Positions 7,761 to 32,621 of a stretch of DNA of 38,183 nt are shown one piece after another (position 1 is the first letter of the stretch; every line of letters begins with the position of its first letter). The translations under genes were made by a program, and so were the position numbers. Source of the stretch: an uncultured Opitutia bacterium (GTDB taxonomy: Bacteria > Verrucomicrobiota > Verrucomicrobiia > Opitutales > Opitutaceae); assembly GCA_903820035.1 (NCBI GenBank), contig CAIJFT010000146.1:1-38183 (forward strand). Direction: 5' to 3'. The notes beneath the pieces were generated by a model. It had not been told where the DNA came from, searched no databases, and saw only the letters and a list, made by a program, of their open reading frames with translations.

Positions 7761-7960
7761 TACTTCATGATCTACCGCAGGCTCCGCCCGCGTCGACCGG
7801 AATGCGCGTTCGACGGGAGCAGACGGTTGATCGATGAACGTTGCCGGTGAGGCGCCCCACCCCCGTAGACCGCGAAAGCACCAACCCTGCACTCACGCAC
7901 CGGACCGCTTGACGGAACCCGCAACTTCTAGTCCGGGGTATCCGCCGGCACGCCTCCGAC

Positions 7961-8611
7961 TCAGCGCCGCCGCTGCAGCCGCTCGTCCGGCAGCGCCTCC
8001 GTGGCGTAACGCACCTCGCGGATGAGGCCCTTGAACCAGTGGACGCGATTTTGCCGCACCCCGAGCGAAATCCGCCCGGCGCCAAGTGGGGCAAAACGCG
8101 CGAGTCGCTCGAGCTCTTTTTGCCCGTCGACAAAATGGGCCATCCGCTCGCCGTCGTAACGCAGCGCCACCCAGTACCAACGCCCGACCGGATGGACCCG
8201 CGTCGGATCGATCAACGCCACCCCACCACCCGCCGGATTGGTGATGAAGGTGTCCAACCACCACCCGCCCTTGCCATCCAATCGCGTCTCAAGCAGCGCC
8301 CGCGACTGCGCCACGTCCTGAGCATGCCAGAACCGTTGCTCCGTCGGTCCATCGGCCTCGGGATAAAACAGCACCTCGATGGTGTAGGCGCGCGCTCCTG
8401 CAAAGGGAATCGACGGCACGACGAGACCGTCCGACCGGCCGTCAAAACGCAGCGCCGGGCCGACCTCCGAGTCGACCAATCCGGGCCGACCGATGACCTC
8501 CACCGGATGGTGGTCGATCCGGAGCAACTGATCCATCCGCCAAACCGTTTCCCCCGCCATCAGGATCCTTAACCCTACAAGGCAGAACAGGAGTGGGAAG
8601 CGGAACCACAT
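7961..8611 (-). CDS. LamG/concanavalin A-like domain protein, secreted
   Basis: 216 residues from the ATG at 8611, chosen because it opens directly into a hydrophobic signal-like segment ('MWFRFPLLFCLVGL'). The mature part has the beta-sandwich pattern of LamG/laminin-like lectins: 'GPALRFDGRSDGLVVPS', 'AYTIEVLFYPE', 'RWYWVALRYDGERMAHFVDG', 'RISLGVRQN' and a closing 'KGLIREVRYATEALPDERL'. Such domains in this phylum bind carbohydrate or serve as extracellular adhesion modules; the ligand is unknown. It is divergent from the TMTC-like gene (119-nt spacer) and upstream of the sulfatase-like gene on the same strand, so both may serve glycan handling (inference). Confidence 0.75.
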   Translation of the reverse strand: MWFRFPLLFCLVGLRILMAGETVWRMDQLLRIDHHPVEVIGRPGLVDSEVGPALRFDGRSDGLVVPSIPFAGARAYTIEVLFYPEADGPTEQRFWHAQDVAQSRALLETRLDGKGGWWLDTFITNPAGGGVALIDPTRVHPVGRWYWVALRYDGERMAHFVDGQKELERLARFAPLGAGRISLGVRQNRVHWFKGLIREVRYATEALPDERLQRRR

Positions 8612-15743: not shown

Positions 15744-16289
15744 ATGTCGCGTTCGATTGCCACCCGCACCGGGGATGACGGCACCACCGGCCTTCTTTAC
15801 GGCCAGCGCGTCCCGAAGGATCATCCGCAAATCGAAGCCGTCGGCGTCCTCGACGAACTCAATGCCGCCATTGGCACCGCCCGGGCGATGGTCACCGCCA
15901 ACGGAGCGCGCGAACTCGTCATCGGCGGACTACTCACCCGCGTACAACAAAACCTCGTCGCCCTGATGGGCGAAATTGCCTGCGCCGAAGTCGATTCCAC
16001 GCGCTTCGGGGCATCTAATTTCCCCCGGCTCGGCGCCGACGACCTCCGGATCCTTGACGAGGCGGTGGCCCAACTCGAGTCGCGCGGCCTCCGCTTCGAC
16101 GGCTGGGCAACCCCTGGCGCCAACTCCATGGCCGCCGCCTTCGACGTCGCCCGCACCACCGCCCGCCGCGCGGAACGCCGGCTCGTCGCCCTGCCGGCCG
16201 TCGGTCGCAGTCTCCGCCCCGAACTCCGGCAGTGGATCAATCGCCTCTCGGACTGCCTGTGGCTGTTGGCCCGGGAATGTGAACAGTGA
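15744..16289 (+). CDS. PduO-type ATP:cob(I)alamin adenosyltransferase
   Basis: 181 residues. The N-terminal ATP-binding segment 'TRTGDDGTTGLLYGQRVPKD' and 'VGVLDELNAAIGTARA' match PduO-type adenosyltransferases, as do the later 'GANSMAAAFDVARTTARRAERR' and 'INRLSDCLWLLARECE'. It transfers the adenosyl group from ATP to cob(I)alamin, making coenzyme B12. It starts 21 nt after the oxidoreductase stop, and the DUF6580 membrane gene follows after 54 nt. No cobalamin riboswitch could be recognised upstream. No adenosylcobalamin-dependent mutase is in this window. Confidence 0.93.
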   Translation: MSRSIATRTGDDGTTGLLYGQRVPKDHPQIEAVGVLDELNAAIGTARAMVTANGARELVIGGLLTRVQQNLVALMGEIACAEVDSTRFGASNFPRLGADDLRILDEAVAQLESRGLRFDGWATPGANSMAAAFDVARTTARRAERRLVALPAVGRSLRPELRQWINRLSDCLWLLARECEQ

Positions 16290-16343
16290 CATTGCCCTTC
16301 GTCACGCTTGTCTCCCACCACATTAGTCACAGAGTCTCGCCCC

Positions 16344-16910
16344 ATGCACCTCCTTTTTGCCCTGTCCGTGCTCGTGCTGGCAGCCGGTTGGCGTGTGCTC
16401 GCGGTCCAGATTCCCGCGCTTGCGAATTTCGCCCCGCTCATGGCTTTGACCTTCTGCGGCGCGGTCTACCTGCGCGATCGCCGGCTCTGGGTGGTGCCAT
16501 TTCTGGCCCTGGTGGTTTCGGACGTGTATCTGGACAGCTATTACGCCGCGACCTTTCAGGAGGGCTGGACTTGGCCGAGCGTGGCGATCCGCGCCGCCTG
16601 CTTCGCCTGCGCGCTGCCGCTCGGGCGACTCGTGGCCCAGCGGAAAAACATGTTCACCCTCGCCGCCGGCACCCTGGCCGGCTCACTGCTGTTCTACGTC
16701 GCCACGAATACCGACGCCTGGTTCCGCGATGTGTACTACGCCAAGACGCTCGCCGGCTGGCTGCAGGCGCTGACGTTCGGTCGGCCGGAGTTTCCGCCGA
16801 CGCTCTTCTTTTTCCGCAACACCCTCGTGAGCGACCTGCTGTTCACCGGCGCGTTCGCCGCCGCGATGGAGCTTGCCCGCCGTAAGGCCACGGTCGCCGC
16901 CCGCGCCTGA
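16344..16910 (+). CDS. DUF6580 family membrane protein, putative transporter
   Basis: 188 residues from the ATG at 16344, chosen because it starts the first hydrophobic helix. Five or six membrane segments are visible. The signature segments 'NFAPLMALTFCGAVYL', 'VPFLALVVSDVYL', 'YAKTLAGWLQAL' and 'FFFRNTLVSDLLFTGAF' fit the DUF6580 family, annotated as putative transport proteins and resembling small substrate-binding membrane subunits of vitamin importers. Cys38, Cys86 and Cys89 are present. It follows a cobalamin adenosyltransferase on the same strand, so corrinoid or other cofactor uptake is a reasonable guess (inference). Confidence 0.75.
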   Translation: MHLLFALSVLVLAAGWRVLAVQIPALANFAPLMALTFCGAVYLRDRRLWVVPFLALVVSDVYLDSYYAATFQEGWTWPSVAIRAACFACALPLGRLVAQRKNMFTLAAGTLAGSLLFYVATNTDAWFRDVYYAKTLAGWLQALTFGRPEFPPTLFFFRNTLVSDLLFTGAFAAAMELARRKATVAARA

Positions 16911-16916
16911 GGGGCG

Positions 16917-16936
16917 GCCTGCGGCGCAGGCGTTTT
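16917..16936 (+). terminator. possible intrinsic terminator after DUF6580 gene
   Basis: A perfect 6-bp stem (GCCTGC, loop GGC, GCAGGC) begins 7 nt after the stop codon and is followed by G and four T. The T tract is short, so this is only a candidate. Confidence 0.4.
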
Positions 16937-17004
16937 CCCACGTTCGAAGGCACAAGGCTCTCGCTGAGTCCGACACGGCTAGGCGTCGAAGGCCGAGGGT
17001 TGTC

Positions 17005-17025
17005 TTTCAACCCTCACCTTTCAAC
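17005..17025 (+). repeat. short 7-bp tandem repeat (TTTCAAC type)
   Basis: Three heptads in a row, TTTCAAC, CCTCACC and TTTCAAC, lie in the spacer between two convergent genes. They overlap a hairpin with a perfect 8-bp stem (GAGGGTTG at 16995-17002 with CAACCCTC at 17008-17015, 5-nt loop). The same TTTCAAC unit recurs upstream of the iolA-like gene near 28938. Confidence 0.5.
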
Positions 17026-17026
17026 T

Positions 17027-17044
17027 GGCCGCCCCGCGGCCTAC
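17027..17044 (-). repeat. REP-like GTAG palindrome at the phoH stop codon
   Basis: Read on the minus strand it is GTAG overlapping a perfect 6-bp stem (GGCCGC, loop GGG, GCGGCC). The TAG of the GTAG head is the stop codon of the PIN-PhoH gene. The outer GGCCGCCCC (17027-17035) also pairs with GGGGCGGCC at 16911-16919 on the far side of the spacer. REP elements typically show a GTAG head next to a GC palindrome at gene ends. Confidence 0.45.
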
Positions 17045-19749: not shown

Positions 19750-20541
19750 TCACAGCGCCGCCAACAACCCGCCGTCGACGAATAGGATCTGTCCGTTCAC
19801 GAAGTCAGCCGCAGACGACGCCAGAAACACCGCCGCGCCGATCAACTCCTTCGGCTCGCCCCAGCGACCGGCCGGCGTGCGGGTGCAGATGTAGTTCTCC
19901 CAGTGCGGATCAACGGTCATGACGCCGGTCATGTCGGTGCGCATGTAACCCGGCGCGAGCCCGTTCGCCTGCACGTTGCGCCCGCCCCACTCCACCGCCA
20001 TCGCCCGCGTCAGCATCTTCAAACCACCTTTCGCCGCCGCATAGTTCGCAATCGTCGGTCGCGAAATTTCGGAGTTGAGCGAACACAGGTTGATGATTTT
20101 TCCCCCGCCACGCTGCAGCATCCCCGGGACCACCGCCCGCGTCACCAGGAACGCACTGGTGAGGTTCACGTCGAGGACGGCCTGCCAGGAATCGAGCGCC
20201 ATCGATTCCAACGGGGCCCGCCGGTGGATGCCCGCATTGTTGATCAAAATGTCGATCTCGCCCGCCACTGGTCCGAGCGCTGACGCAATTTCCTCCGCCT
20301 TCGTCACGTCGAACCGCCGTCCGTGCACCACGAATCCCTCACTGCGCAGCAGGGCGACCGCGGCGTCGAGCCGCGCCGCATCGAGATCATTAAGGATTAG
20401 CTCAGCCCCCGCCACACCGAGGCCCCGAGCCAGGGTCAGGCCAATGCCCTGACCCGAGCCGGTAAGGAGCGCACGGCGGCCGCGCAGCGAAAACAAATCC
20501 GGCGTCGCGGTCGCCGGCGGGGCTCCGGATCCAGAACTCAT
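19750..20541 (-). CDS. SDR family dehydrogenase, gluconate 5-dehydrogenase-like
   Basis: 263 residues. It has the classical short-chain dehydrogenase pattern: cofactor motif 'TGSGQGIG' (27-34), 'NNAG' (101-104), and the catalytic Ser154, Tyr167 and Lys171 in 'NLCSLNSE' and 'YAAAKGG'. 'GKIINLCSLNSEISRPTIAN' and 'RTPAGRWGEPKELIGAAVFL' fit the gluconate 5-dehydrogenase/2-deoxygluconate 3-dehydrogenase branch. It begins 39 nt after the TonB-dependent receptor stop on the same strand, so the two are probably one operon, divergent from iolB. It could oxidise an inositol or a keto-sugar acid imported by that receptor, which would fill the missing IolG step (inference). Confidence 0.88.
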   Translation of the reverse strand: MSSGSGAPPATATPDLFSLRGRRALLTGSGQGIGLTLARGLGVAGAELILNDLDAARLDAAVALLRSEGFVVHGRRFDVTKAEEIASALGPVAGEIDILINNAGIHRRAPLESMALDSWQAVLDVNLTSAFLVTRAVVPGMLQRGGGKIINLCSLNSEISRPTIANYAAAKGGLKMLTRAMAVEWGGRNVQANGLAPGYMRTDMTGVMTVDPHWENYICTRTPAGRWGEPKELIGAAVFLASSAADFVNGQILFVDGGLLAAL

Positions 20542-20580: not shown

Positions 20581-23500
20581 TCAGAATCGCCCCCGGACGC
20601 CAAGCGTCCAGATCGGCCCGAGGATCTCGCGCGACCGCAACAGTCCCGGCTCGTTGGCGTAGTAGTCCTGAAAGGCATTAAAAATATTCCGGCCGCTAAG
20701 CGTAAGTTCGTAGGTGCGGTTGAACCTGTAGCCGGCGCTCAGGTCGGCGAGCAGTTGCTCGCTCCACCAACGGACTTCATTTGTGGCCACCGAGTCGATT
20801 TTCGCCGCGGTCCAGGTGGCCCGCAGCTGGACGTTGAAGCGGACGTTGCTGAAACGAATTCCGCCGTTCGCGGACTTGGGCACCACCCCATCCAGCGGCT
20901 TGTCGGCGATCACGCGCGAGACAGAGCCAAACACGCTGAAGCCGCGCCAGAAGCCGGGGAGGAAGACGAGTTGCTGGCTGTATTCGAAGTCCACGCCCTT
21001 CATTTTCGTCCGCTCGGTGAGGTTCGTGGGCTGCACAAATGTGTAGCCCGCGTAGTCCGGCTCGTCGCCATAACCGGCCGCCTCGGCCGATACCCGCGTG
21101 TTGGCGGATCCCATGTTCTTGATGTCGATCTGGTAGGTGGACATCGAGAGGGTGCCGGCCGGTTCGAGGAAGTATTGGAGGCTCACGAAATATTTCCTGG
21201 CATACTCGGACTTCATCCGCGGGTTCGGGAGCGTGACCACGCGCGTCGTCTCATTGATGGTAACAATCCCGGCAAGTTTGTCGTAGCCGGGGCGTAAAAT
21301 TGATTCGTTGCCCGACACCTGCAGGACCAGATCCCGCATGATCTCATACTTGGCGCCGCCGCTGAGAAACCAATCACTGCTGTCGCCATAGTGGTTCGAC
21401 CGCTCCCCATTCCGGTATTGATAAACGACGTAGGGAATAGTCGCCGGAGTGTAGCCGGCGGCCCGGACGACCGCATCCGGGAGCGGCTCGAACACCCGGG
21501 CGATGTTGCGCGTGCGCTCATGGCGAAGCCCGAGATCGAGGCGCAAAAGACCCACGCGGGTCGAGCCTTCGACATAACCAGAATCGATCTCCTCCTTGAT
21601 GCCGCGCGGCGCGATGAATTCCTTCGTGAAGTTCCCCAGCGTGTCGGGCACAAAATGCGAGGGATCCGCCACAAACCGATCGTGCAGTATCGTGTTGTCC
21701 ACGTAGGCCAGATTGAGCGAGGCGATATTGCCTCCGATCTTCGGATCAAAAGGGACGAAGTTGTGAAACACGGGAAAGACGGTCGTCGGCGCAGTCTGCG
21801 ATCCGGCCGCCCCGACATAAGTCCAACTCCGGTCGCCCTGCCGCTCGACGTCGTGCGTCGTGAGCCGGGACTTCCATCCGGACTCGAGCAGCACGAGCAG
21901 TCCGCCAAGCTTTACGGGCCGACTCGCATCCAGAAAGCCCTGAAAAACCTGATTCTGTCCGGAGAGTTCGCGGCTGCGGACGGAATTTGCATTGGTGTCA
22001 TTGCGCCCCAAACTCGCGGCGTCCGACCAGGGCAACCCCGAAAGCCGGGTGAGGCGCCAGCCGGGCTGGGAAGTACTGTCACGCTCGGCCATCCAACTCA
22101 TCCGGGTAATACGGGCTCCGACGGTTTGAAAGAACCCGCTGTTAATGTCGCTATAATGGGTGCGGCTGCGCGAATAACCGCCGCCGCCGGTGAGCGTTAG
22201 CCCGCCGGACCGGTAAACAAATTTCGGGGTGTAGGTGACGGTGTCGTTCAACCGATTGCGATGGCTCTGGGCCTCGTCCATGCGCGTGTTGGCATTGTTC
22301 GTCGGTAGCGCAATGACCTTGGTCAGCGTGGACGATGGATCAATCTGTGCCGCGCTCGCCTGAAACGTCACGGTGCGGTCGGCGTATTCATCGTTGAAGT
22401 GCGCGCCCGTCACGCGCAACGAGAACACCAGACCATCCGCCAGCTTGGAATCAAAACTGGCTCCGAACGAATCGCGCCGGGTGATTTTGGGCGCCTGGCG
22501 GAAGGATACATTCGTGATGAACGGCCCCCGCGTGGGATTGCTGAAGTCATAGTTCGTCGTGCCGTTCTCCTGCTCGGTGTAGGCGATGTTGGAGCTCACG
22601 TTGAACTGCACGCCGATGCGGCCGCCAAACGATTCACTATAGTTGAACTTGGAGCCGGGGAACACCTTCAGGTGGTTGCCATCGTCCGGCCCGGGCGTCT
22701 TGCGCATCGTCAGCGCGTAGGCATTTCCCGTCAGCGTGGCTTCAGTCACGATCTCGCGGCCTTTGCGCTCGAAGGCATTCTTGCTTTTCAAGTTGAGGCG
22801 GCCGGCGACGGCATCCGCGTCCATCTTGGCGGTAAGCGTCTTACTGACCTCGATGGACTCGATGCTGTTGATGGAAGTCTGGTCGAATTCGAACCCTCGG
22901 GACCCGGCACCAAACGAGCCCGAGGAGGCGTTCGCCATCCGCATGCCATCAATGCTGATGCCGACGTATTTTGGATCCAGCCCGCCGATGCGCGCAGCCC
23001 GCGCCTCCGACTTCGTGTAGTCGAGCACAATGCCCGGGAGATACTTGACGAATTCGCCGATACTCCCGCTCGTGACGTCACCGAAATTGTCGGTCGCCAC
23101 CGCGTTCATCATGTTGAGCGCGGCCCGCTGCTCCATGATCGCCTTCGCATTGCCCTCACGTTCCTCGGACACGACGAACGACCCCAACGCCACAATTTCT
23201 CCGTCCTTACGGCCCAGGCCGGCCACCGCCCGGTAGGTGGCCCCCTGCAGTTCGAAGTCCTGCTTCACGGCCTGTTCGGTCGCGAGCCTCACCGTGGCGA
23301 TCGCCACATCGTAGCCGGTATAGGTCACCGTCAGCCGGACCTCGCCGCCGTCCACATTGGTCAGCACGTACGATCCATCGTCGCCAGAATAGACGACGAG
23401 GTCGGTACCGCTCACGCGAATCTCGGCGTTTCGGACATAGGCACGGGTGGTTGGATTGAAAATCCGACCGCTGATTGTTCCGGCGCTCACCGGATGAGCG

Positions 23501-23607
23501 ATTATTCCGGCGGCGAGTCCGTACACGAACAGCCGAGAAAGGGAGAGGCGCTGAGTTCGGCTGGGGGGGCAGCCCGGTGCGCTCGGGTGGTCGGATCGGT
23601 TCGTCAT
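20581..23607 (-). CDS. TonB-dependent receptor beside the iol genes
   Basis: 1008 residues. A signal-like hydrophobic segment ('LFVYGLAAGIIAHPVSAG', about 27-43) is followed by a carboxypeptidase-regulatory-like beta-sandwich ('GTISGRIFNPTTRAYVRNAE' to 'VKQDFELQG', 43-117). A plug domain (about 145-280) contains 'NFGDVTSGSIGEFVKYLPGI' and 'INSIESIEVSKTLTAKMDAD', and the rest is a long outer-membrane beta-barrel ending in aromatic 'GVRGRF'. It is an energised outer-membrane importer; the substrate is unknown. Its position back to back with iolB and in front of an SDR gene suggests inositol, an inositol derivative or a related sugar acid. Confidence 0.93.
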   Translation of the reverse strand: MTNRSDHPSAPGCPPSRTQRLSLSRLFVYGLAAGIIAHPVSAGTISGRIFNPTTRAYVRNAEIRVSGTDLVVYSGDDGSYVLTNVDGGEVRLTVTYTGYDVAIATVRLATEQAVKQDFELQGATYRAVAGLGRKDGEIVALGSFVVSEEREGNAKAIMEQRAALNMMNAVATDNFGDVTSGSIGEFVKYLPGIVLDYTKSEARAARIGGLDPKYVGISIDGMRMANASSGSFGAGSRGFEFDQTSINSIESIEVSKTLTAKMDADAVAGRLNLKSKNAFERKGREIVTEATLTGNAYALTMRKTPGPDDGNHLKVFPGSKFNYSESFGGRIGVQFNVSSNIAYTEQENGTTNYDFSNPTRGPFITNVSFRQAPKITRRDSFGASFDSKLADGLVFSLRVTGAHFNDEYADRTVTFQASAAQIDPSSTLTKVIALPTNNANTRMDEAQSHRNRLNDTVTYTPKFVYRSGGLTLTGGGGYSRSRTHYSDINSGFFQTVGARITRMSWMAERDSTSQPGWRLTRLSGLPWSDAASLGRNDTNANSVRSRELSGQNQVFQGFLDASRPVKLGGLLVLLESGWKSRLTTHDVERQGDRSWTYVGAAGSQTAPTTVFPVFHNFVPFDPKIGGNIASLNLAYVDNTILHDRFVADPSHFVPDTLGNFTKEFIAPRGIKEEIDSGYVEGSTRVGLLRLDLGLRHERTRNIARVFEPLPDAVVRAAGYTPATIPYVVYQYRNGERSNHYGDSSDWFLSGGAKYEIMRDLVLQVSGNESILRPGYDKLAGIVTINETTRVVTLPNPRMKSEYARKYFVSLQYFLEPAGTLSMSTYQIDIKNMGSANTRVSAEAAGYGDEPDYAGYTFVQPTNLTERTKMKGVDFEYSQQLVFLPGFWRGFSVFGSVSRVIADKPLDGVVPKSANGGIRFSNVRFNVQLRATWTAAKIDSVATNEVRWWSEQLLADLSAGYRFNRTYELTLSGRNIFNAFQDYYANEPGLLRSREILGPIWTLGVRGRF

Positions 23608-24032
23608 TCGAGGAAAAATTGGGCCGGCATCATAATGTTTGGATTGTGATCGTTGTTTCGGCTACCCCAACGCGAACTCCATTTACGGCCGCATAAATTC
23701 GTAACACGACCGTCACAGCAGGGCGAGATGGAACGACGGCCGAAACGTCCTCCGTTGCAGACCGAAGCGCGTAAATCCAGTATGGCGATGGATCGCCAAG
23801 AAGCGCTGCTGGCGATCGCCCGCCAGATTGGCTCGTTACCGCGCATCGCGGCTGCAGGCGCGGACCCCGAACTCCATCCGACGGATCGCGCGGAGAAACG
23901 TGAGTCGCTCGTGGCCCCACGCCCGGTCGCCGACCGCTCCCGTTCACACTCAAAATCCCGTCGACGCCCCCGCGTGGGATCGCGCTTACCTTTTGACTCC
24001 GCTCCCCGCCCAACCGTCACTCGTTGCCCTGC
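23608..24032. other. intergenic control region between the TonB receptor and iolB
   Basis: A 425-nt divergent spacer with no convincing gene. It starts with a relatively AT-rich stretch (about 23625-23700), the likeliest place for the two promoters, although no clear -35/-10 pair could be assigned. It contains an inverted repeat at 23791-23817 and a self-complementary GGCGATCGCC at 23811-23820. Open frames across it have unnatural compositions and are taken as chance products of high GC. Confidence 0.6.
23791..23817. promoter_or_regulatory. candidate operator (inverted repeat) upstream of iolB
   Basis: Perfect 8-bp arms GATCGCCA (23791-23798) and TGGCGATC (23810-23817) are separated by 11 nt, giving 19 bp between arm centres, close to two helical turns. 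This is typical spacing for a dimeric repressor. No regulator gene is present in the window. Confidence 0.3.
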
Positions 24033-24875
24033 ATGTCTTCCGCGAAAACCCTGCTCCGCGGCCCCGCCCTCGGTTTCCCCACCGGCTTCACCCCGGTCAC
24101 GGCCAAGGCCACCGAGGCCACCGGGACGCATTTTCCCAGCGGGATTGATTTCGGCCTGCTTCGACCCGCCGCCGGCGAAGTGATGGCGGAAGCGTCGCCC
24201 CTCGAAACCGCGTGGGTGCTGCTGCACGGCACCGCCGAAATCGAGTGCGCAGGCCAGCGCACCCGCGTCCAACGGAATAGTCTCTTCGACGAACCGCCCA
24301 CCGCGTTGCACGTCCCGCGCGATACGCCGGTCGCCCTGCTCAATTCCGCCCCCGGCAACGAGTGGGCCGTGATCCGCACTGAGAATTCGCGCTCGTTTGC
24401 GCCGCACTTGTTCCTCCCCGCCGATCTCCGGCCCGAATACCGCGGCGCCGGCCTCGCGCAAAACGCGTGCCTGCGCAACGTGCGCCTGATCTTCGATTAC
24501 ACCAACCGCCCCGAGGCCAACCTCGTCGTCGGCGAAGTTGTCAACTACCCGGGCCGCTGGTCGAGCTATCCGCCGCACCACCACGACCAGACCGAACTCT
24601 ACCACTACCGCTTCACCGACCGGCGCGGCTACGGCCATGCGGAACTCGGCGACGACGTCGTGAAAGTCCGCGACGGCGACACGACGATCATCCCGCCCGG
24701 CCACGACCACGCGCAGGTTTCCGCGCCGGGCTACGGGATGTATTACCTCTGGATGATCCGGCATCTGCCGGGTAACCCGTACCAGGGATTCACCTTCACC
24801 GCGGAACACCAGTGGACCCTCGATCCCGCGCAGCAGGGCTGGCGCCCGCAAACTCTCCCCCCCGGACTCGTATGA
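24033..24875 (+). CDS. iolB: 5-deoxy-glucuronate isomerase
   Basis: 280 residues from the ATG at 24033. It is a bicupin enzyme with the strong family signature 'NYPGRWSSYPPHHHDQTE' (His182-184 as metal ligands), 'LYHYRF', 'IIPPGHDHAQVSAPGYGMYY' and 'IRHLPGNPYQGFTF'. It converts 5-deoxy-D-glucuronate to 2-deoxy-5-keto-D-gluconate in myo-inositol degradation. It is the first gene of the rightward iol operon; its TGA overlaps the iolD ATG by 4 nt. Length and motifs are normal for the family. Confidence 0.96.
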   Translation: MSSAKTLLRGPALGFPTGFTPVTAKATEATGTHFPSGIDFGLLRPAAGEVMAEASPLETAWVLLHGTAEIECAGQRTRVQRNSLFDEPPTALHVPRDTPVALLNSAPGNEWAVIRTENSRSFAPHLFLPADLRPEYRGAGLAQNACLRNVRLIFDYTNRPEANLVVGEVVNYPGRWSSYPPHHHDQTELYHYRFTDRRGYGHAELGDDVVKVRDGDTTIIPPGHDHAQVSAPGYGMYYLWMIRHLPGNPYQGFTFTAEHQWTLDPAQQGWRPQTLPPGLV

Positions 24876-26740
24876 AAAAACCCGTTACCCTGAGCATGGC
24901 CGCGGCGCTGGTGCGCTTCCTTCCGCAACAGTATATCCGCCGCGACGGCATCGAGCACCGCCTGATCAACGGCGTGTGGGGCATTTTCGGCCACGGCAAC
25001 GTCACGGGCTTCGGCCAGGCGCTGGAGGAAAACGGCGGCCGCGTCCTGCCCTACCTGCAGGCGAAAAACGAGCAGGCCATGGTCCACGCCGCCGTCGCCT
25101 TCGCCAAGACCCGGCAGCGCCTCGGCACCTATGCGTGCACCAGTTCGATCGGCCCCGGCGCGACCAACATGATCACCGGCGCAGCCGTCGCCACCGTGAA
25201 CCGCCTGCCCGTGCTGCTCCTGCCTGGCGACATCTTCGCCAACCGCCGCCCCGGCCCCGTGCTGCAGCAATTGGAATATGCCTCGAGCCAGGACGTGAGC
25301 GTGAACGACTGCTTCCGGCCCGTCTCGAAATACTGGGACCGGATCAACCGTCCGGAACAGCTGCTCACCGCGCTGCCCGAGGCCATGCGCATCCTGGCCG
25401 ATCCGGTCGAGACCGGCGCGGTGACGATCGCGCTGCCCGAGGACGTGCAAGCCGAAAGCTACGCCTACCCGGAGCACTTCTTCGCCAAACGCGTCTACAC
25501 GATCGACCGCGCCCCGTGCTCCACCGAAAGCCTGCGGGCCGCCGTGGCGTTAATCCGCGGCGCGCGCCGTCCGCTCATCATCGCCGGCGGCGGCGTGCAC
25601 TACAGCGACGCCGTCGCCGCCCTCGACCAGTTCGCCGCCGCGACCGGCATCCCCGTCGCCGTCACGCAGGCCGGCAAGGGCGCGATCATCGATGCGCATC
25701 CGTCGTGCCTCGGCGCCATCGGCGTCACCGGCACCGCCGCCGCCAATGCGCTCGCCGTCGAAGCGGACGTGGTGATCAACCTCGGTACCCGCCTCAGCGA
25801 TTTCACGACGGCCTCGAAGTCCCAATTTCAAAACCCGCGCGTCCGCTTCATCGGGATCAACGTCCACTCGGCCGACGCCCACAAGCACGGCGCCATCCCT
25901 TTGGTCGGCGACGCCCGCGCCGTCCTCGGTCAACTCAGCCGCGCCCTCGCCGGCTGGGGCGTACCCGCTGCCCACCGTAGCGCCATACAGCGCCAACGCA
26001 CCGCCTGGGAAAAGACCCGCGCGACCCTCGTCGCCGCCAAGCGCGGCGTGCCGCTCACGCAGGCCCAGGTCATCGACGAGCTAAACCAAGCCTGCGGTCC
26101 CGACGGCACCGTGGTCCACGCGTCCGGCGGCATCCCGGGCGACATCCACAAGCTGTGGCGCTCGCAGTCGCCCACGGACTACCATTCTGAATACGGCTAT
26201 TCGTGCATGGGCTACGAGATCGCCGGAGCCCTCGGCGTGAAGCTCGCCGCCCCGCGCCGCCGCGTGTACGCGTTCCTCGGCGACGGCAGCTACCTGATGC
26301 TGCACACCGAGATCGTCACGGCCGTGCAGGAGGGACTCGACCTCACCATCGTCGTCATCGACAACCACGGCTTCGGTTGCATCCACGGCCTGCAGCGCGG
26401 TTGCGGCGGCAACAGCTTCGGCAACGAATTTCGCCACCGCACGGGGAAGGCCGCCCGCCTCGAGGGCCGGCCCGTTGACGTCGACTTCGCCCAGAACGCT
26501 GAAAGCCTCGGCGCCAAGGGCGTGCGCGCCCACTCGCCCGCTGAACTGCGCGCCGCCCTGGCGGAAGCCAAAACCACGCGCGGCGTCGTGCTGATCTTCG
26601 TCACCACGCCTGCCGATGTCCGCCTGCCCGGCTATGCGTGGTGGGATGTACCGGTTTCGGCGACGTCGCAGGTTCCCGGCGTGAAGAAGGCCCGCGCCGC
26701 CTACGAGCGTGCGCTGCAGAAACAGAAGTTTTATTACTGA
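24872..26740 (+). CDS. iolD: 3D-(3,5/4)-trihydroxycyclohexane-1,2-dione hydrolase
   Basis: 622 residues. It is a thiamine-diphosphate enzyme of the acetolactate synthase fold. The N-terminal PYR domain has the cofactor-activating Glu67 in 'AKNEQAMVHAAVAFAK' and 'TSSIGPGATNMITGAA'. The central domain has 'RPLIIAGGGVHYS'. The C-terminal PP domain has the ThDP motif 'GDGSYLMLHTEIV' leading to 'VVIDNHGFGCIHGLQR' (about 470-510). It opens the cyclic diketone made by IolE to 5-deoxy-glucuronate, feeding IolB. The ATGA overlap with iolB implies translational coupling, and iolE follows after 13 nt. Confidence 0.97.
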   Translation: MKKPVTLSMAAALVRFLPQQYIRRDGIEHRLINGVWGIFGHGNVTGFGQALEENGGRVLPYLQAKNEQAMVHAAVAFAKTRQRLGTYACTSSIGPGATNMITGAAVATVNRLPVLLLPGDIFANRRPGPVLQQLEYASSQDVSVNDCFRPVSKYWDRINRPEQLLTALPEAMRILADPVETGAVTIALPEDVQAESYAYPEHFFAKRVYTIDRAPCSTESLRAAVALIRGARRPLIIAGGGVHYSDAVAALDQFAAATGIPVAVTQAGKGAIIDAHPSCLGAIGVTGTAAANALAVEADVVINLGTRLSDFTTASKSQFQNPRVRFIGINVHSADAHKHGAIPLVGDARAVLGQLSRALAGWGVPAAHRSAIQRQRTAWEKTRATLVAAKRGVPLTQAQVIDELNQACGPDGTVVHASGGIPGDIHKLWRSQSPTDYHSEYGYSCMGYEIAGALGVKLAAPRRRVYAFLGDGSYLMLHTEIVTAVQEGLDLTIVVIDNHGFGCIHGLQRGCGGNSFGNEFRHRTGKAARLEGRPVDVDFAQNAESLGAKGVRAHSPAELRAALAEAKTTRGVVLIFVTTPADVRLPGYAWWDVPVSATSQVPGVKKARAAYERALQKQKFYY

Positions 26741-26753
26741 GCCACTCGTCCCG

Positions 26754-27662
26754 ATGTCCTCCCGCCCGCTCCTGCCCCACTGCCTCGTCGGCGCCAATCC
26801 GATCATCTGGAGCAACGACGATTTCAACGAACTCGCCGGCGACGTCCCGCTCGACACAATCCTGAGCGAGATGCGCGCCGCCGGTTACGCCGGCTCCGAA
26901 CTCGGCCACGCCTACCCGCGCACCCCCGCCGCCCTCGCCGAGCCGCTCGCGCGCCACCACCTCCGGCTCGTCAGCGGGTGGCACAGCACCTACCTCGCGG
27001 CCCGCGATCTCGCAGCCGAGGAGGCGTCGTTTCGCTCGCACCTGAGTTTGCTGAAAACCCTCGGCGCCCGCGTCGCCATCGTCGCCGAGTGCACGCGCTG
27101 CCTCCACGGCACGCGCGAGGCCGCGCTCGGTTTCGGCGCCGCTCCGGCGCCGCAATTGGACAACGGCGAATGGACGCGCCTTGTCGCCGGGATGAAGCGC
27201 CTCGCCGCCATCGCCGCGGACGAAGAGACGAAGATCGTTTACCATCATCACATGGGCACGGTTATCCAAGGCGAAGCCGACCTCGAACGCCTGCTCGCCG
27301 CCGTCCCGGAGATTTCCCTCCTGCTCGATCCGGGCCACCTCGCTTTCGCCGGCATCGATCCGGTGGCGGTCGCCCAGCGTCACGCGACCCGCGTCGGCCA
27401 CGTGCACCTGAAGAGCGTGCGCCCCGCCATCGCCGAGCGCGTCCGACGTGAAGGCTGGTCGTTCTGCCGCGCCGTGAGCGAAGGCGTGTTCACGATCCCC
27501 GGCGACGGCTGCGTCGATTTCCCCGCCATCTTCCGGATTCTGAGCGCCGCCGACTACCGCGGCTGGCTCGTCGCCGAAGCCGAGGAGGATCCCGTCAAAG
27601 TCCCCGCCTTGCCCAAAGCCCGCGCCGCGCGGGAGTATGTTCGCCGCGAGGCCGGGTGCTGA
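26754..27662 (+). CDS. iolE: myo-inosose-2 dehydratase
   Basis: 302 residues. It is a TIM-barrel enzyme of the xylose isomerase-like/AP endonuclease 2 superfamily: 'GANPIIWSNDDFNELAGD' at the N-terminus is typical of IolE, followed by 'AGYAGSELG', 'VYHHHMGTVI', 'LLLDPGHLAFAG' and 'RVGHVHLKSV' carrying likely metal-ligand Glu, Asp and His residues. It dehydrates 2-keto-myo-inositol to trihydroxycyclohexane-dione, the substrate of IolD. It starts 13 nt after iolD in the same operon. It is followed by a 123-nt spacer with short-period repeats before the transaldolase-family gene. Confidence 0.95.
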   Translation: MSSRPLLPHCLVGANPIIWSNDDFNELAGDVPLDTILSEMRAAGYAGSELGHAYPRTPAALAEPLARHHLRLVSGWHSTYLAARDLAAEEASFRSHLSLLKTLGARVAIVAECTRCLHGTREAALGFGAAPAPQLDNGEWTRLVAGMKRLAAIAADEETKIVYHHHMGTVIQGEADLERLLAAVPEISLLLDPGHLAFAGIDPVAVAQRHATRVGHVHLKSVRPAIAERVRREGWSFCRAVSEGVFTIPGDGCVDFPAIFRILSAADYRGWLVAEAEEDPVKVPALPKARAAREYVRREAGC

Positions 27663-27785: not shown

Positions 27786-28841
27786 ATGACCACAAACCGC
27801 ATGTCTGAAATGACGGCCCTCGGGGCCGATTGGTGGAACGACTCCGGCATCCCCGACGAACTCAGCCAAGCCATCGCGCTCGGCGCGGTCGGCGGCACGT
27901 CGAACCCGGTCATCGTTTCCCAGGCGGTGAAGGCCCAGCCCGCGCTCTGCCATCCCATCATCGACCGGCTCGTCCGCGACCACGCTTCCGACACCGAGGA
28001 CGACCTCGCCTGGAAGCTCATCCACACGCTCGCCATCGACGCGGCGTCACGCCTCATGCCGGTCTACCATGCGACCAAGGGCGTAAAGGGGTTCCTCTCC
28101 GCGCAGGTCAACCCGAAGTATTACCGGAGCAAGGAGCTCATGGTGGCGCAGGCGACCCAACTGGCCGCCCTCGCGCCGAATATCGCGATCAAGGCCCCCG
28201 CGACCGACATCGGCATCGAGGCCATCGAGGAGATGACCGCCCGCGGCATCCGCATCAACGCCACCGTCAGCTTCTGCGTGCCGCAGGCGATCGCCGTCTC
28301 CCGCGCGCTTGAACGCGGACTCAAACGGGCCCGGGCCGCCGGCCGCGACGCCGACGCCATTCAGCCGTACATCACCCTAATGATCGGGCGCGTCGACGAT
28401 CACCTGAAACGCGTGGCCGAGCGGGAAACAATCCCGACCACCCCCGGCGTCCTCGACTGGGCCGGCATCGCCGTATTCAAGCACGCGCACCAACTCTTCA
28501 AACGCCACGGACACGTCGGCACGCTCCTCGCCGCCGCCTACCGCCACGAGGCGCATTGGTCGCAGATCATCGGCCGCGAGGTGCTGCAGACCGTGCCGTA
28601 CACCTGGTGGACGAAGTACAACGTCTCGCCGACGCAGCCCACGCTCACCCTCGATCACCCCGTCGACGGCGCCATCCTCAGCGAGCTGCGCGCCAAGTTC
28701 CCCGACTTCATCCGCGCCCACGACGAAAACGGCATGAGACCCTCCGAGTTTATCGGCTACGGTGCGACCCAACACACCCTGACCCAGTTCCTCGGCGGCT
28801 ACGACGATCTCATCCAGTCGGTCCGCGCGCGCATGCTCTGA
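27786..28841 (+). CDS. transaldolase-family aldolase in the inositol operon
   Basis: 351 residues. The transaldolase/fructose-6-phosphate aldolase barrel is recognisable: Asp19 in 'WWNDSGI', 'GGTSNPVI' (Ser39-Asn40), 'FLSAQVNPKYY', Schiff-base Lys136 in 'IAIKAPATDIG', Asn158 and Thr160 in 'RINATVSF', and Arg202 in 'IGRVDD'. Lys-to-Asn spacing is 22, as in Escherichia coli TalB (132 to 154). The residue aligned with TalB Glu96 is Gln107, as in fructose-6-phosphate aldolase (Gln59). The gene lies between iolE and iolA. Known transaldolases move a dihydroxyacetone unit. Here the likely substrate is 2-deoxy-5-keto-gluconate, giving malonate semialdehyde (inference). An ordinary pentose-phosphate role cannot be excluded. 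Confidence 0.88.
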   Translation: MTTNRMSEMTALGADWWNDSGIPDELSQAIALGAVGGTSNPVIVSQAVKAQPALCHPIIDRLVRDHASDTEDDLAWKLIHTLAIDAASRLMPVYHATKGVKGFLSAQVNPKYYRSKELMVAQATQLAALAPNIAIKAPATDIGIEAIEEMTARGIRINATVSFCVPQAIAVSRALERGLKRARAAGRDADAIQPYITLMIGRVDDHLKRVAERETIPTTPGVLDWAGIAVFKHAHQLFKRHGHVGTLLAAAYRHEAHWSQIIGREVLQTVPYTWWTKYNVSPTQPTLTLDHPVDGAILSELRAKFPDFIRAHDENGMRPSEFIGYGATQHTLTQFLGGYDDLIQSVRARML

Positions 28842-28970: not shown

Positions 28971-30458
28971 ATGAGTACTCCCCTCGTTCCCCATTTCATC
29001 GCCGGCGAATGGATCCGGCCCGCCGGCCTCGCCACCACGCCCGTCTACAATCCGTCGACCGGTGACGTCATCGCAGAGTGCCCGGTCGGCGGCGCCACCG
29101 AAGTCAACGCCGCCGTGACCGCCGCGCACGCTGCGTTTGCCGACTGGCGCGAGACGCCGGCCGTGGACCGCGCCCGCGTGTTCTTTCGCTACCGTCAGCT
29201 CGTCGAACAGAACTTCGACCGCATCTGCGCGACGGTCTCGCGCGAGCACGGCAAAACCCTCGCCGAGGCGCGCGGCAGCGCCTTCCGCGGCCTCGAAAAC
29301 ATCGAGTACGCCTGCGGCGTCCCCTCGCTGCTCTTCGGCGATACCCTCGAAAACCTCGCCCGCGGCGTCGACTGCGAGACCTTCTTGCAGCCGCTCGGCG
29401 TGTGCGTGGGCATCACCCCGTTCAACTTCCCCGCGATGGTCCCGCTGTGGATGTACCCGCTCGCCATCGCCTGCGGCAATACCTTCGTCCTGAAGCCGAG
29501 CGAGAAGGTCCCGCTCACGGCGGTGCTGCTCGGCGAACTGCTCGAGCAGGCGGGATTGCCCAAGGGAGTGTTCAATATCGTCCACGGCGGCCGCGACTGC
29601 GTCGATGCGCTGCTCACCCACCCGCAGGTCCGCGCGGTGTCATTCGTCGGTTCGTCGCCGGTCGCCAAATACATCTACGAGACCGGGACCCGGAACGGCA
29701 AACGCGTCCAGGCCAACGGCGGCGCGAAGAACTACATCGTGATCATGCCGGACGCCGACATCCCGAAGACGGTCGAGGCGCTCTCGACCGCCGCCTTCGG
29801 TTGCGCCGGCGAACGCTGCATGGCCGGGTCCACCGCCATCACCGTCGGCGCCGCGGCGGAGCGCCTGCTGCCCTCGCTCGTCGACGCCGCGCGCAAGATC
29901 CGCGTCGGCCCGACCGATCGCCCCGCGCAGCCCGACATGGGCCCGGTCATTTCCGCCCTGCACCGCGACCGCATCCTCGACCTCGTCGCCACCGGGGAAA
30001 GGGAGGGCGCCAAGGTCATCGCCGACGGCCGCGGCGTGAAGGTCACCGATGCCCCGCGCGGCTTCTACCTCGGCGCCACGATCGTCGACGGCGTGCAACA
30101 GAACATGACGCTCGCCCGCGAGGAAGTCTTCGGCCCGGTGCTGAATGTGATGCGCATGGACGATCTCGACCGCGCGATCGAAATCACCAACGCGTCCGCC
30201 TTCGGCAACGGCGCCGCGATTTTCACCAACAGCGGCAAAGCCGCACGCGAGTTCAAGCACCGCGTGAAGGCCGGCATGGTCGGGATCAACGTCGGCGTGC
30301 CCGCGACGATGGCGATGTTCCCCTTCACCGGCTGGGACGACTCATTCTACGGCGATCTGCATATCCAGGGCCGCGAGGCCGTGCAGTTCTACACCCAACA
30401 GAAGGTTGTCACGACGCGCTGGTTTGGCGACGGCGTCGGCGACGTCTGGAAGAAATAA
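28971..30458 (+). CDS. iolA: methylmalonate/malonate-semialdehyde dehydrogenase (CoA-acylating)
   Basis: 495 residues. It is an aldehyde dehydrogenase superfamily member of the MmsA/IolA type: 'GVCVGITPFNFPAMVPLWMY', 'LKPSEKVPLTA', 'FVGSSPVAKYIYETG', 'RVQANGGAKNYIVIMPDAD', catalytic Cys283 in 'GCAGERCMAGS', and 'EEVFGPVLNV' near the C-terminus. It oxidises malonate semialdehyde with NAD+ and CoA to acetyl-CoA and CO2, the last step of inositol breakdown. Its presence right behind the transaldolase-family gene implies that malonate semialdehyde is made by this locus, although iolC and iolJ are not here. Confidence 0.95.
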   Translation: MSTPLVPHFIAGEWIRPAGLATTPVYNPSTGDVIAECPVGGATEVNAAVTAAHAAFADWRETPAVDRARVFFRYRQLVEQNFDRICATVSREHGKTLAEARGSAFRGLENIEYACGVPSLLFGDTLENLARGVDCETFLQPLGVCVGITPFNFPAMVPLWMYPLAIACGNTFVLKPSEKVPLTAVLLGELLEQAGLPKGVFNIVHGGRDCVDALLTHPQVRAVSFVGSSPVAKYIYETGTRNGKRVQANGGAKNYIVIMPDADIPKTVEALSTAAFGCAGERCMAGSTAITVGAAAERLLPSLVDAARKIRVGPTDRPAQPDMGPVISALHRDRILDLVATGEREGAKVIADGRGVKVTDAPRGFYLGATIVDGVQQNMTLAREEVFGPVLNVMRMDDLDRAIEITNASAFGNGAAIFTNSGKAAREFKHRVKAGMVGINVGVPATMAMFPFTGWDDSFYGDLHIQGREAVQFYTQQKVVTTRWFGDGVGDVWKK

Positions 30459-31496: not shown

Positions 31497-32621
31497 ATGT
31501 CCTACCTCACCGCCCAACCGGCCGAACGCATTCTCCTCGGGCCCGGCCCGAGCCCCGTGCCGCAGCGCGTGCTCCGCGCGCTGTCGGCGCCGACGCTCGG
31601 CCACCTTGATCCACAGTATCTCACCATCATGGACGAGACCTGCGCCATGCTGCGCGAGGTCTTCGGCACGAAAAACGCGCTGACCTTCCCGGTCAGCGGC
31701 ACCGGCATGGCCGGCATGGAGTGCTGCGCCGTGAACCTCGTGGAGCCCGGCGATGAGGTTATTGTGTGCGTCAACGGCGTCTTCGGCGCGCGGATGAAGG
31801 ACGTCATGGAACGTTGCGGCGCGGTGGTCCATGCCCTCGAAGCCCCGTGGGGCGAAGGCTATACGATCGAGCAAATCACCGCCAAGCTCGACCAGCATCC
31901 GAAGGCCAAGGTGTTCGCCATCGTACAGGCCGAAACCAGCACCGGCGCGCTGCAACCGCTCGAAGGCATCGCGGATGTCGTGCACGCCCGCGGCGCGTTG
32001 CTCCTCGTCGACGCCGTCACGAGCCTCGGCGGCCACGAGTTGAAGGTCGACGCCTGGGGCATCGATGCAATCTACAGCGGCACGCAAAAGTGCCTCAGCT
32101 GCCCCCCCGGACTGTCCCCCGTCAGCTTCGGCGACCGCGCCCTCGCCCGCATGGATGCACGCAAGACCAAGGTGCAGTCTTGGTACCTCGACGTCTCGAT
32201 GTTGCGGAAATATTACACCGGGGGCTCCGGGGCCGGCGGCGGTCGGGTTTACCACCACACCGCGCCGATCAACATGACCTACGCGTTGCGGGAAGCGCTC
32301 GTCATGGTCCTCGAGGAAGGCCTCGACGCCCGGATTGCCCGCCACGCCGCCATGCACCAGCGCCTGCGCGCCGGACTCGCGGATCTCGGACTGGGCTACA
32401 TCCCGTCCCGCTCGCTCCACTCGTTGAATTGCATCCGTATCCCCGAAGGCGCCAACGACGGGGCAGTCCGCGGCCGGCTCCTGACGGAGTACGGCATCGA
32501 AATCGGCGCCGGCCTCGGCGTCATGGCCGGCAAGGCTTGGCGCATCGGGCTGATGGGCCATGGCTCGAACGTGCGCAATGTGGACCTCGTCCTTGCAGCG
32601 CTGCGGAATATCCTGAAGTAG
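31497..32621 (+). CDS. class V aminotransferase (alanine/serine-glyoxylate type)
   Basis: 374 residues. It is a PLP-dependent fold-type I enzyme of the AGXT/SPT branch: 'LLGPGPSPVPQRVLRAL', 'TLGHLDPQYLTIMDE', 'PVSGTGMAGMECCAVNLVEP', 'VQAETSTGALQPLEGI', 'LLLVDAVTSLGGHEL' and the PLP Lys198 in 'AIYSGTQKCLSCPPGLSPVS'. Family members transfer amino groups between alanine or serine and glyoxylate. It is the last gene of the rightward group, separated from the DUF1080 gene by 106 nt of hairpins, so it may or may not be in the same transcript. A role with malonate semialdehyde (to beta-alanine) is conceivable but unsupported. Confidence 0.92.
   Translation: MSYLTAQPAERILLGPGPSPVPQRVLRALSAPTLGHLDPQYLTIMDETCAMLREVFGTKNALTFPVSGTGMAGMECCAVNLVEPGDEVIVCVNGVFGARMKDVMERCGAVVHALEAPWGEGYTIEQITAKLDQHPKAKVFAIVQAETSTGALQPLEGIADVVHARGALLLVDAVTSLGGHELKVDAWGIDAIYSGTQKCLSCPPGLSPVSFGDRALARMDARKTKVQSWYLDVSMLRKYYTGGSGAGGGRVYHHTAPINMTYALREALVMVLEEGLDARIARHAAMHQRLRAGLADLGLGYIPSRSLHSLNCIRIPEGANDGAVRGRLLTEYGIEIGAGLGVMAGKAWRIGLMGHGSNVRNVDLVLAALRNILK

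Follow-up and report, generated by a model that had tools for sequence, protein, structure and literature searches.

A transaldolase-family enzyme may replace the kinase and aldolase of inositol catabolism in several bacterial groups

Introduction

How might inositol catabolism proceed beyond 2-deoxy-5-keto-D-gluconate (DKG) in a bacterium whose inositol gene cluster carries a gene of the transaldolase family between iolE and iolA? The question is raised by a 38,183-nucleotide stretch of contig CAIJFT010000146.1 (the whole stretch is referred to here as the window) from an uncultured Opitutia bacterium of the Opitutaceae (Verrucomicrobiota; assembly GCA_903820035.1), in which the gene concerned lies at positions 27786–28841. 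To our knowledge, the known versions of the textbook inositol pathway phosphorylate DKG before cutting it. From comparative sequence analysis we consider it very probable that this one transaldolase stands in for the kinase IolC as well as for the aldolase (IolJ or DUF2090), and several unrelated bacterial groups appear to break down inositol without this usual pair of enzymes.

A fusion of IolC with DUF2090 has already been described, and the available part of that paper reports IolC-DUF2090 in 16 and IolJ in 2 of 26 inositol-using genomes (PMC9007349); in the available part of another, the aldolase is missing from the inositol pathway of Gaiella (PMC6741124). No description of a transaldolase in inositol catabolism was found among the matches listed from open-licence literature. 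Both the superfamily and the type of bypass that we propose are already known; it is their part in this pathway that was not found described in that literature.

Results

A transaldolase-family gene within an inositol cluster

The 27786–28841 segment of the forward strand is a single open reading frame (ORF) of 351 residues with an ATG start, a TGA stop and no internal stops, and the opposite-strand frame across it is broken by two stops. Its product scores 124.7 bits against Pfam TAL_FSA (PF00923), above the cut-off of 27, and is therefore a member of the transaldolase/FSA superfamily. Family profiles give the gene order iolB-iolD-iolE-tal-iolA, with gaps of 123 bases between iolE and tal and 129 bases between tal and iolA. 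An earlier reading of the window from its letters alone (the sequence-only reading) had placed a transaldolase-family gene exactly between iolE and iolA, in an operon encoding IolE, IolD, IolB and IolA, and the ORF and profile searches confirm both points; we call IolB divergent because its score falls under the NCBIfam cut-off, and Pfam identifies it as KduI/IolB (Table 1).

The 351-residue protein matches ten NCBIfam models for transaldolases or fructose-6-phosphate aldolases, and reaches the curated cut-off of none. With the pentose-phosphate transaldolase models the scores and cut-offs are 120.9 and 367 bits (NF002881), 34 and 396.2 bits (TIGR00874), and 75.7 and 233.75 bits (TIGR00876). 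The marks of a fructose-6-phosphate aldolase are likewise missing, with 44.7 of 245.95 bits for TIGR00875, Met199 for Tyr131 and 351 residues for a short chain, as are those of a sulfofructose transaldolase, a short chain encoded in a sulfoquinovose cluster, here replaced by a 351-residue protein in an iol cluster.

The gene accompanies IolD and is complementary to IolC in two phyla

We surveyed 288 Verrucomicrobiota genomes (survey 1) and 195 genomes of the phylum of genome G013, whose locus L016 is labelled Myxococcota (survey 2). Matches were listed at E ≤ 1e-40 for the transaldolase gene, 1e-120 for IolD and 1e-50 for IolC, and scoring did not extend to every first-look candidate of a genome. 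In survey 1 the gene is present in 8 of 288 genomes at 46–100% identity, with tandem paralogues at 34–37% in two more. IolD is over its cut-off in exactly the eight genomes with the gene, which represent two Verrucomicrobiota families, and lies on the same contig a few kilobases away (Fisher p = 9e-16, shared ancestry ignored). None of the 288 genomes has IolC over its cut-off, and the three matches below it (174.7–175.8 bits) are all in genomes without IolD. The sequence-only reading had suggested looking in iolBDE clusters of other Verrucomicrobiota for this subfamily without iolC or iolJ; 8/8 IolD genomes carry the subfamily and have no IolC over cut-off.

Survey 2 contains the alternative as well. 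Here the gene was found in 11 of 195 genomes (43–57% identity), IolD in 15 (14 over cut-off and one partial) and IolC over cut-off in seven. Among the 15 IolD genomes, eight have the gene alone, four IolC alone, three both and none neither, and in the 180 genomes without IolD neither the gene nor IolC was listed. With shared ancestry again ignored, Fisher p is 5e-15 for the link between gene and IolD and 0.026 for the alternation of gene and IolC among the 15. Six of the seven IolC-positive genomes were scanned for DUF2090 (G369 lies outside the scan), and five of these six IolC proteins are fused to a DUF2090 aldolase (263–447 bits), that of G453 being unfused; because of these fusions, it is a kinase-aldolase unit that alternates with the transaldolase. 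In two phyla, then, the gene goes with IolD and complements IolC; three survey 2 genomes and a genome of SAR324 have both the gene and IolC.

The kinase and aldolase in the window's own genome and in gene-bearing relatives

The genome from which the window comes (6.05 Mb in 469 contigs, 98% complete, 4.4% contamination) was searched for the kinase and aldolase that the sequence-only reading had found missing from the operon. With all 15 candidates scored, TIGR04382, the IolC profile, is matched at 102.7 bits at best (cut-off 300), and a DUF2090 search at E ≤ 1 found nothing; IolJ was not searched for. IolJ is a class II aldolase, of a family that also serves glycolysis. In a set of 20 gene-bearing genomes, comprising this one and 19 from relatives found with the family patterns, IolC and DUF2090 are each over cut-off in one and the same genome, that of SAR324, and the next best IolC match is 185 bits in G013. 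The SAR324 IolC is encoded on a different contig from the transaldolase gene, beside IolB and a DeoC/LacD-type aldolase gene. PfkB kinases of about 100 bits in the window's own genome and in G004 were considered as the missing kinase and dropped; by eye no recognised aldolase gene adjoins either, that of G004 lying beside dehydrogenase genes and that of the own genome being followed by an ABC transporter.

Predicted structure and active site

An AlphaFold model built from 20 family members has a mean predicted local distance difference test score (pLDDT) of 93.5. The best solved match is the Neisseria gonorrhoeae transaldolase (3clm; Z 39.8, root-mean-square deviation 2.0, 320 residues aligned), and the Corynebacterium glutamicum enzyme (3r5e) gives Z 38.8 and a deviation of 2.3 over 333 residues; Z is about 32 for Escherichia coli TalB, 22.5 for sulfofructose transaldolase and 20.8 for an FsaA mutant. 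The model thus predicts a transaldolase barrel with the Schiff-base lysine in place, K136 aligning with K132 of TalB and K85 of FsaA. Ten TalB positions are in register: six are kept (N35 as N40, K132 as K136, N154 as N158, T156 as T160, R181 as R202 and R228 as R253) and four are changed (E96 to Q107, S176 to T197, F178 to M199 and S226 to A251). Q107, M199, R202, A251 and R253 are invariant across 20 of 20 members.

Q107, K136, N158, T160 and R202 all stand where the sequence-only reading had put them. It had also remarked that Gln107 replaces TalB Glu96 as in FsaA, and both position and residue hold; the Gln is not a sign of DKG function or of free-aldolase behaviour, because distant relatives in Shinella and in tandem pairs share it in other settings.

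Separation from pentose-phosphate transaldolases

In a phylogenetic tree, from which the second G184 copy and L020 (a near-copy of L019) were left out, the family forms a group of its own (22 rows, support 93/95) that includes neither the ordinary transaldolases nor TalB, FsaA or the tandem relatives. The outer joins are unsure because several branches are long. Eight of the 61 genomes of the window's own taxonomic family were read as gene-bearing (G000, the own genome, with G094, G110, G162, G179, G315, G337 and G344). A TalB-type gene of more than 300 bits stands alongside in four of these, G094, G110, G162 and G315, and was found neither in the other four nor in several genomes lacking both genes. 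A placement apart from the pentose-phosphate enzymes is therefore borne out by the tree and by this coexistence, and the own genome, which has no TalB-type gene, does not add to it.

The other PF00923 matches in the own genome are a short gene on contig C135 (130.8 bits) and a weak match on C410 (13.1 bits). By eye, the C135 gene (L001, L067), of about 220 residues, lies among SIS, GHMP-kinase-like and nucleotide-sugar-like genes, a set perhaps for heptose synthesis.

Neighbourhoods of relatives

Gene context was counted over 59 loci, one per contig place; L019–L021 are near-copies, and L064 and L093, which are the contigs of L017 and L006, were not counted. No iolC match of at least 150 bits occurs in any of the 59 neighbourhoods. 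In the Opitutaceae and near Verrucomicrobiota relatives, iolD and iolE are beside the gene in 20 of 20 loci, iolB and iolA in 15 each and iolG in 12. Both loci of a second Verrucomicrobiota family (L058, L059) have the order iolG, gene, iolB, iolD, iolE, iolG, iolA, and by eye the L058 cluster is preceded by a sugar-porter-type transporter. Myxococcota group A has iolB-iolD-iolE-gene in 6/6 loci. Directly upstream of the gene lies iolG in SAR324 (455.3 bits, cut-off 355) and iolE in an unclassified bacterium.

On a Clavibacter plasmid (L054) the gene accompanies iolB, iolD, an iolE-like gene (138.5 of 290 bits), an iolG-like gene (267.7 of 540 bits) and a tautomerase-superfamily gene; an upstream iolA-like stretch is split between two overlapping pieces and may be frameshifted, and no iolC was found within the 19 kb examined. 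The tautomerase (7587–7991) is a close homologue of the FG41 malonate semialdehyde decarboxylase (E = 9.7e-49), and because of this the cluster probably handles malonate semialdehyde, for which the transaldolase is the only candidate source seen there. A non-ribosomal peptide synthetase gene lies near this cluster.

More distant genes occur in other settings. In two Verrucomicrobiota (L060 and L061, genomes G184 and G271), pairs of tandem transaldolase-like genes, 34–37% identical, stand by eye with an alcohol-dehydrogenase-like gene, and in L061 also with an IolA-like dehydrogenase; they perhaps serve another keto-acid cleavage. On Shinella plasmids (L055, L056) an acetoin-dehydrogenase-like operon includes a transaldolase-family gene of 31% identity, and genes for a class II aldolase and triose-phosphate isomerase are close by. 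On a Streptomyces plasmid (L057, 6266–7147) an aldolase gene with no NCBIfam match at E ≤ 1e-5 directly follows iolC, and may encode yet another DKG-phosphate aldolase. In viral contigs no stretch matched the family patterns.

Erysipelotrichales

The order of genome G016, which we call Erysipelotrichales on the basis of L020 and L021, gave 28 matches, for 23 of which neighbourhoods were examined (G699, G671, G677, G627 and G687 lie outside); the IolC search in this order covered G016–G018. An iron alcohol dehydrogenase gene is near in 16 of the 23 loci, an IolA-like dehydrogenase gene in four, iolB in eight and iolD in two. One of the latter, L133, contains iolD, iolE, iolG, iolA and the transaldolase gene, and the other, L140, iolB, iolA, the transaldolase gene and iolD. 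In L130, L134 and L136 (3/23) iolB, the transaldolase gene and the iron alcohol dehydrogenase gene are consecutive on one strand. A possible reductase in place of IolA would fit a fermentative fate for malonate semialdehyde, if that is what the dehydrogenase acts on. None of these four genes is near the three copies least like L019 (34–40%).

Phosphotransferase system (PTS), class II aldolase, RpiB-like and iron alcohol dehydrogenase genes stand with the transaldolase gene, in varying sets, in L019–L021, L124–L132, L134, L136 and L137; L127 has an IolA-like gene instead of the iron alcohol dehydrogenase, L019–L021 have also iolB-like and split transketolase genes, and the L129 stretch is short. 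Such neighbourhoods may represent a second use of the transaldolase module. Identification of the Erysipelotrichales cluster as one for sulfoquinovose was considered and dropped; its isomerase is IolB-like, as against the FucI-like SqvD that the available part of PMC9594981 gives for those pathways.

A proposed reaction

We infer the substrate, products and acceptor of the reaction as follows. The donor would be DKG, the product of IolB, cut in its unphosphorylated form in a single step that takes the place of the kinase IolC and the aldolase IolJ/DUF2090. Lys136 would form a Schiff base with the C5 ketone and the C3–C4 bond would be broken, releasing malonate semialdehyde for use by IolA; the enzyme-bound dihydroxyacetone unit would then be passed to glyceraldehyde-3-phosphate to give fructose-6-phosphate, which would enter glycolysis and so regenerate the acceptor. 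DKG is a 5-ketose acid and, by Fischer-projection reasoning, its two hydroxyl carbons are D-threo, as transaldolases accept in fructose-6-phosphate. The DKG carboxylate would be nearer to the Schiff base than is the phosphate of fructose-6-phosphate. According to the available part of PMC8355322, 13C work in an Anaerostipes with IolC and IolJ shows phosphorylated DKG to be cut at this C3–C4 bond too, and that of PMC9594981 describes a sulfofructose transaldolase able to pass the C3 unit to glyceraldehyde-3-phosphate.

The sequence-only reading had allowed either dihydroxyacetone or fructose-6-phosphate as the second product. Dihydroxyacetone kinase (Dak1) is over its cut-off in only 2 of 24 gene-bearing genomes, one of these matches being a 79-residue frame, and the control search was positive in E. 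coli, Lactococcus lactis and Haloferax volcanii. Because of this scarcity, transfer giving fructose-6-phosphate is strongly favoured if the transaldolase does replace the two enzymes, and release of dihydroxyacetone is then rather improbable.

Other genes of the window

Table 1. Inositol cluster and neighbouring genes of the window
Feature	Positions	Strand	Basis
Short-chain dehydrogenase	19750..20541	-	Best NCBIfam match gluconate 5-dehydrogenase, 302.5 bits, under cut-off 408
TonB-dependent receptor	20581..23607	-	Pfam Plug and carboxypeptidase-regulatory domains
iolB, divergent 5-deoxy-glucuronate isomerase, source of DKG	24024..24875	+	TIGR04378, 96.0 bits (cut-off 205); KduI/IolB, 182 bits
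iolD, trihydroxycyclohexane-dione hydrolase	24872..26740	+	TIGR04377, 884.7 bits (cut-off 715), scanned from 24875
iolE, inosose dehydratase	26709..27662	+	TIGR04379, 337.2 bits (cut-off 290)
tal, proposed DKG transaldolase, 351 residues	27786..28841	+	TAL_FSA, active-site residues, AlphaFold model
iolA, (methyl)malonate-semialdehyde dehydrogenase, would use the malonate semialdehyde proposed	28971..30458	+	TIGR01722, 660.5 bits (cut-off 448.5)
Class V aminotransferase	31497..32621	+	PF00266, 113 bits

For iolD the longest ORF opens at 24812, and the probable start is the ATG at 24872, which shares bases with the stop of iolB (ATGA). The iolE ORF opens with a GTG at 26709, and the ATG at 26754 is the likelier start. 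A sigma-70 promoter scan of the operon gave no sites (0.7 expected), and three terminators were found as against 5.8 expected. The short-chain dehydrogenase gene is divergent from the operon and is kept alongside in many Opitutaceae; since iolG was not found in the window cluster, its product might serve as a dehydrogenase for inositol or for a ketose. The TonB-dependent receptor is a possible uptake partner. A class V aminotransferase gene follows iolA in four loci (the window, L007, L010 and L091), and its product might act on glyoxylate or malonate semialdehyde.

Discussion

Weighing the explanations

Several observations weigh against replacement of the kinase and aldolase by the transaldolase. 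The gene and IolC occur together in three survey 2 genomes and in SAR324, and the p-values of both surveys take no account of shared ancestry. In Myxococcota group B, iolD is beside the gene in 0/5 loci and an iolG-like gene in 3/5. In the protein, Ser226 of TalB has become Ala and Phe178 Met; Asp17 of TalB aligns with I22 and not with D19, the residue to which Asp6 of FsaA is aligned; and Arg at R253 is weak evidence, because Lys and Ala occupy the TalB R228 position in two of the three ordinary long transaldolases compared. In the PF00923 search of the own genome, no TalB-type gene was found. In the Erysipelotrichales iolD is not nearby in 21/23 loci and iolB in 15/23, some of the stretches being short, and for this reason some members may serve another substrate. 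Beyond the regulator of L133, a ribokinase-like gene (16102–17037, reverse strand; 74.4 of 300 bits for IolC and 89.2 of 299.65 for ribokinase) could have a role in inositol use.

Four other explanations can be set against these data. An FSA-like aldolase would make the same replacement and release free dihydroxyacetone to be phosphorylated or reduced elsewhere, and we assign it a small share of the probability of the replacement itself. FsaA releases dihydroxyacetone, and its Q59 is the Gln found here at the TalB Glu96 position; the divergent short-chain dehydrogenase, a reductase or a glycerol kinase could conceivably take the product. The rarity of Dak1 argues for the transferring enzyme, as do Met199 at the position of FsaA Tyr131, R202 and R253 in all 20 members, and the occurrence of the same Gln in relatives from other settings. 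It is very unlikely that the gene encodes an ordinary pentose-phosphate transaldolase that balances carbon flow from within an inositol operon. Such an enzyme would have a fold identical in kind, as this one has, and would account for an own genome lacking a TalB-type gene; yet the protein stays below the curated cut-off of every matched transaldolase model (at best 120.9 of 367 bits) and falls in a separate group of the tree, four genomes have a TalB-type gene alongside, the gene at ≥ 43% identity was listed in 0/460 survey genomes without an IolD match, and the alternation with IolC would be left without explanation.

The transaldolase might replace only IolJ, cutting DKG after an unrecognised kinase has phosphorylated it. 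All 20 gene-bearing genomes do contain PfkB-family matches to the IolC profile (E ≤ 0.001), and there is the ribokinase-like gene near the L133 cluster. This explanation is nevertheless highly improbable given that none of the 59 neighbourhoods has an iolC match of the strength sought, and that in DKG-6-phosphate it is the dihydroxyacetone part that carries the phosphate, a part that transaldolases bind in unphosphorylated form. Moreover, the IolC profile is matched in 84 of the 195 survey 2 genomes (E ≤ 1e-50), seven of them over cut-off, and since most of the others lack IolD, a PfkB kinase below the cut-off is not tied to inositol. We give equally little credence to another sugar acid as the substrate, with regulation merely shared with inositol. 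The many Erysipelotrichales copies that have genes for a PTS and a class II aldolase nearby, but no iolD, would suit it, as would the distant relatives in other settings in Shinella and two Verrucomicrobiota; co-occurrence with IolD in two phyla points the other way, and iolB is close in seven loci without iolD (L019–L021, L130, L134, L136 and L139).

The claim that the transaldolase stands in for both kinase and aldolase, made by the sequence-only reading for one operon, draws support from the co-occurrence with IolD, the alternation with IolC, the gene context and the separate tree group. We regard it as likely, as one joint proposal, that a kinase-free transaldolase branch replaces IolC and its aldolase in five or more groups of phylum rank (Verrucomicrobiota, Myxococcota, SAR324, Actinomycetota and Bacillota), and that in anaerobic gut Erysipelotrichales the iolB-transaldolase pair feeds an alcohol dehydrogenase, where it may lead to 3-hydroxypropionate and may serve a second substrate, one linked to a PTS.

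If this proposal is correct, genomes scored as lacking the inositol pathway could be read as complete, the transaldolase family would gain a new enzyme activity, and inositol would join sulfoquinovose as a second example in nature of a kinase and an aldolase being replaced by a transaldolase. The family may also fill part of the gap left by the genomes without a known aldolase in PMC9007349 and in Gaiella.

Comparison with known systems

The proposed reaction resembles that of the sulfofructose transaldolases SqvA/SftT which, in the available parts of the papers describing them (PMC9594981, PMC11659671; structures 8bc2 and 8bc3), cut an unphosphorylated six-carbon acid ketose without a kinase; glyceraldehyde-3-phosphate can take up the C3 unit, as proposed here, and the aldehyde formed is oxidised or reduced afterwards. 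In the same sources, the sulfofructose enzymes are short decameric chains of 216–218 residues, as opposed to the 351-residue long type found here (Z 22.5 versus 39.8), their isomerase is the FucI-like SqvD rather than IolB, and their product is sulfolactaldehyde where we propose malonate semialdehyde. With the canonical pathway, using IolC and IolJ or IolC-DUF2090 as set out in the available part of PMC9007349, the entry steps IolG, IolE, IolD and IolB and the proposed end product, the one used by IolA, are in common. There, a kinase is followed by an aldolase that acts on DKG-6-phosphate to give dihydroxyacetone phosphate, whereas in the own genome IolC over cut-off and DUF2090 were not found.

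The long bacterial transaldolases (3clm, 3r5e) share the fold, the length, the Schiff-base lysine and several active-site positions with the 351-residue protein, which differs from them in its 20–28% identity, in its separate tree group and in its iol context; compared with the ordinary long transaldolases of the alignment, it has Gln for Glu and Met for Phe. FsaA has a Gln at the Glu96 position, as here, and its D6, N28, K85, T109 and R134 are kept; it differs in its length of 220 residues and in Tyr131, which is Met in the protein of the window.

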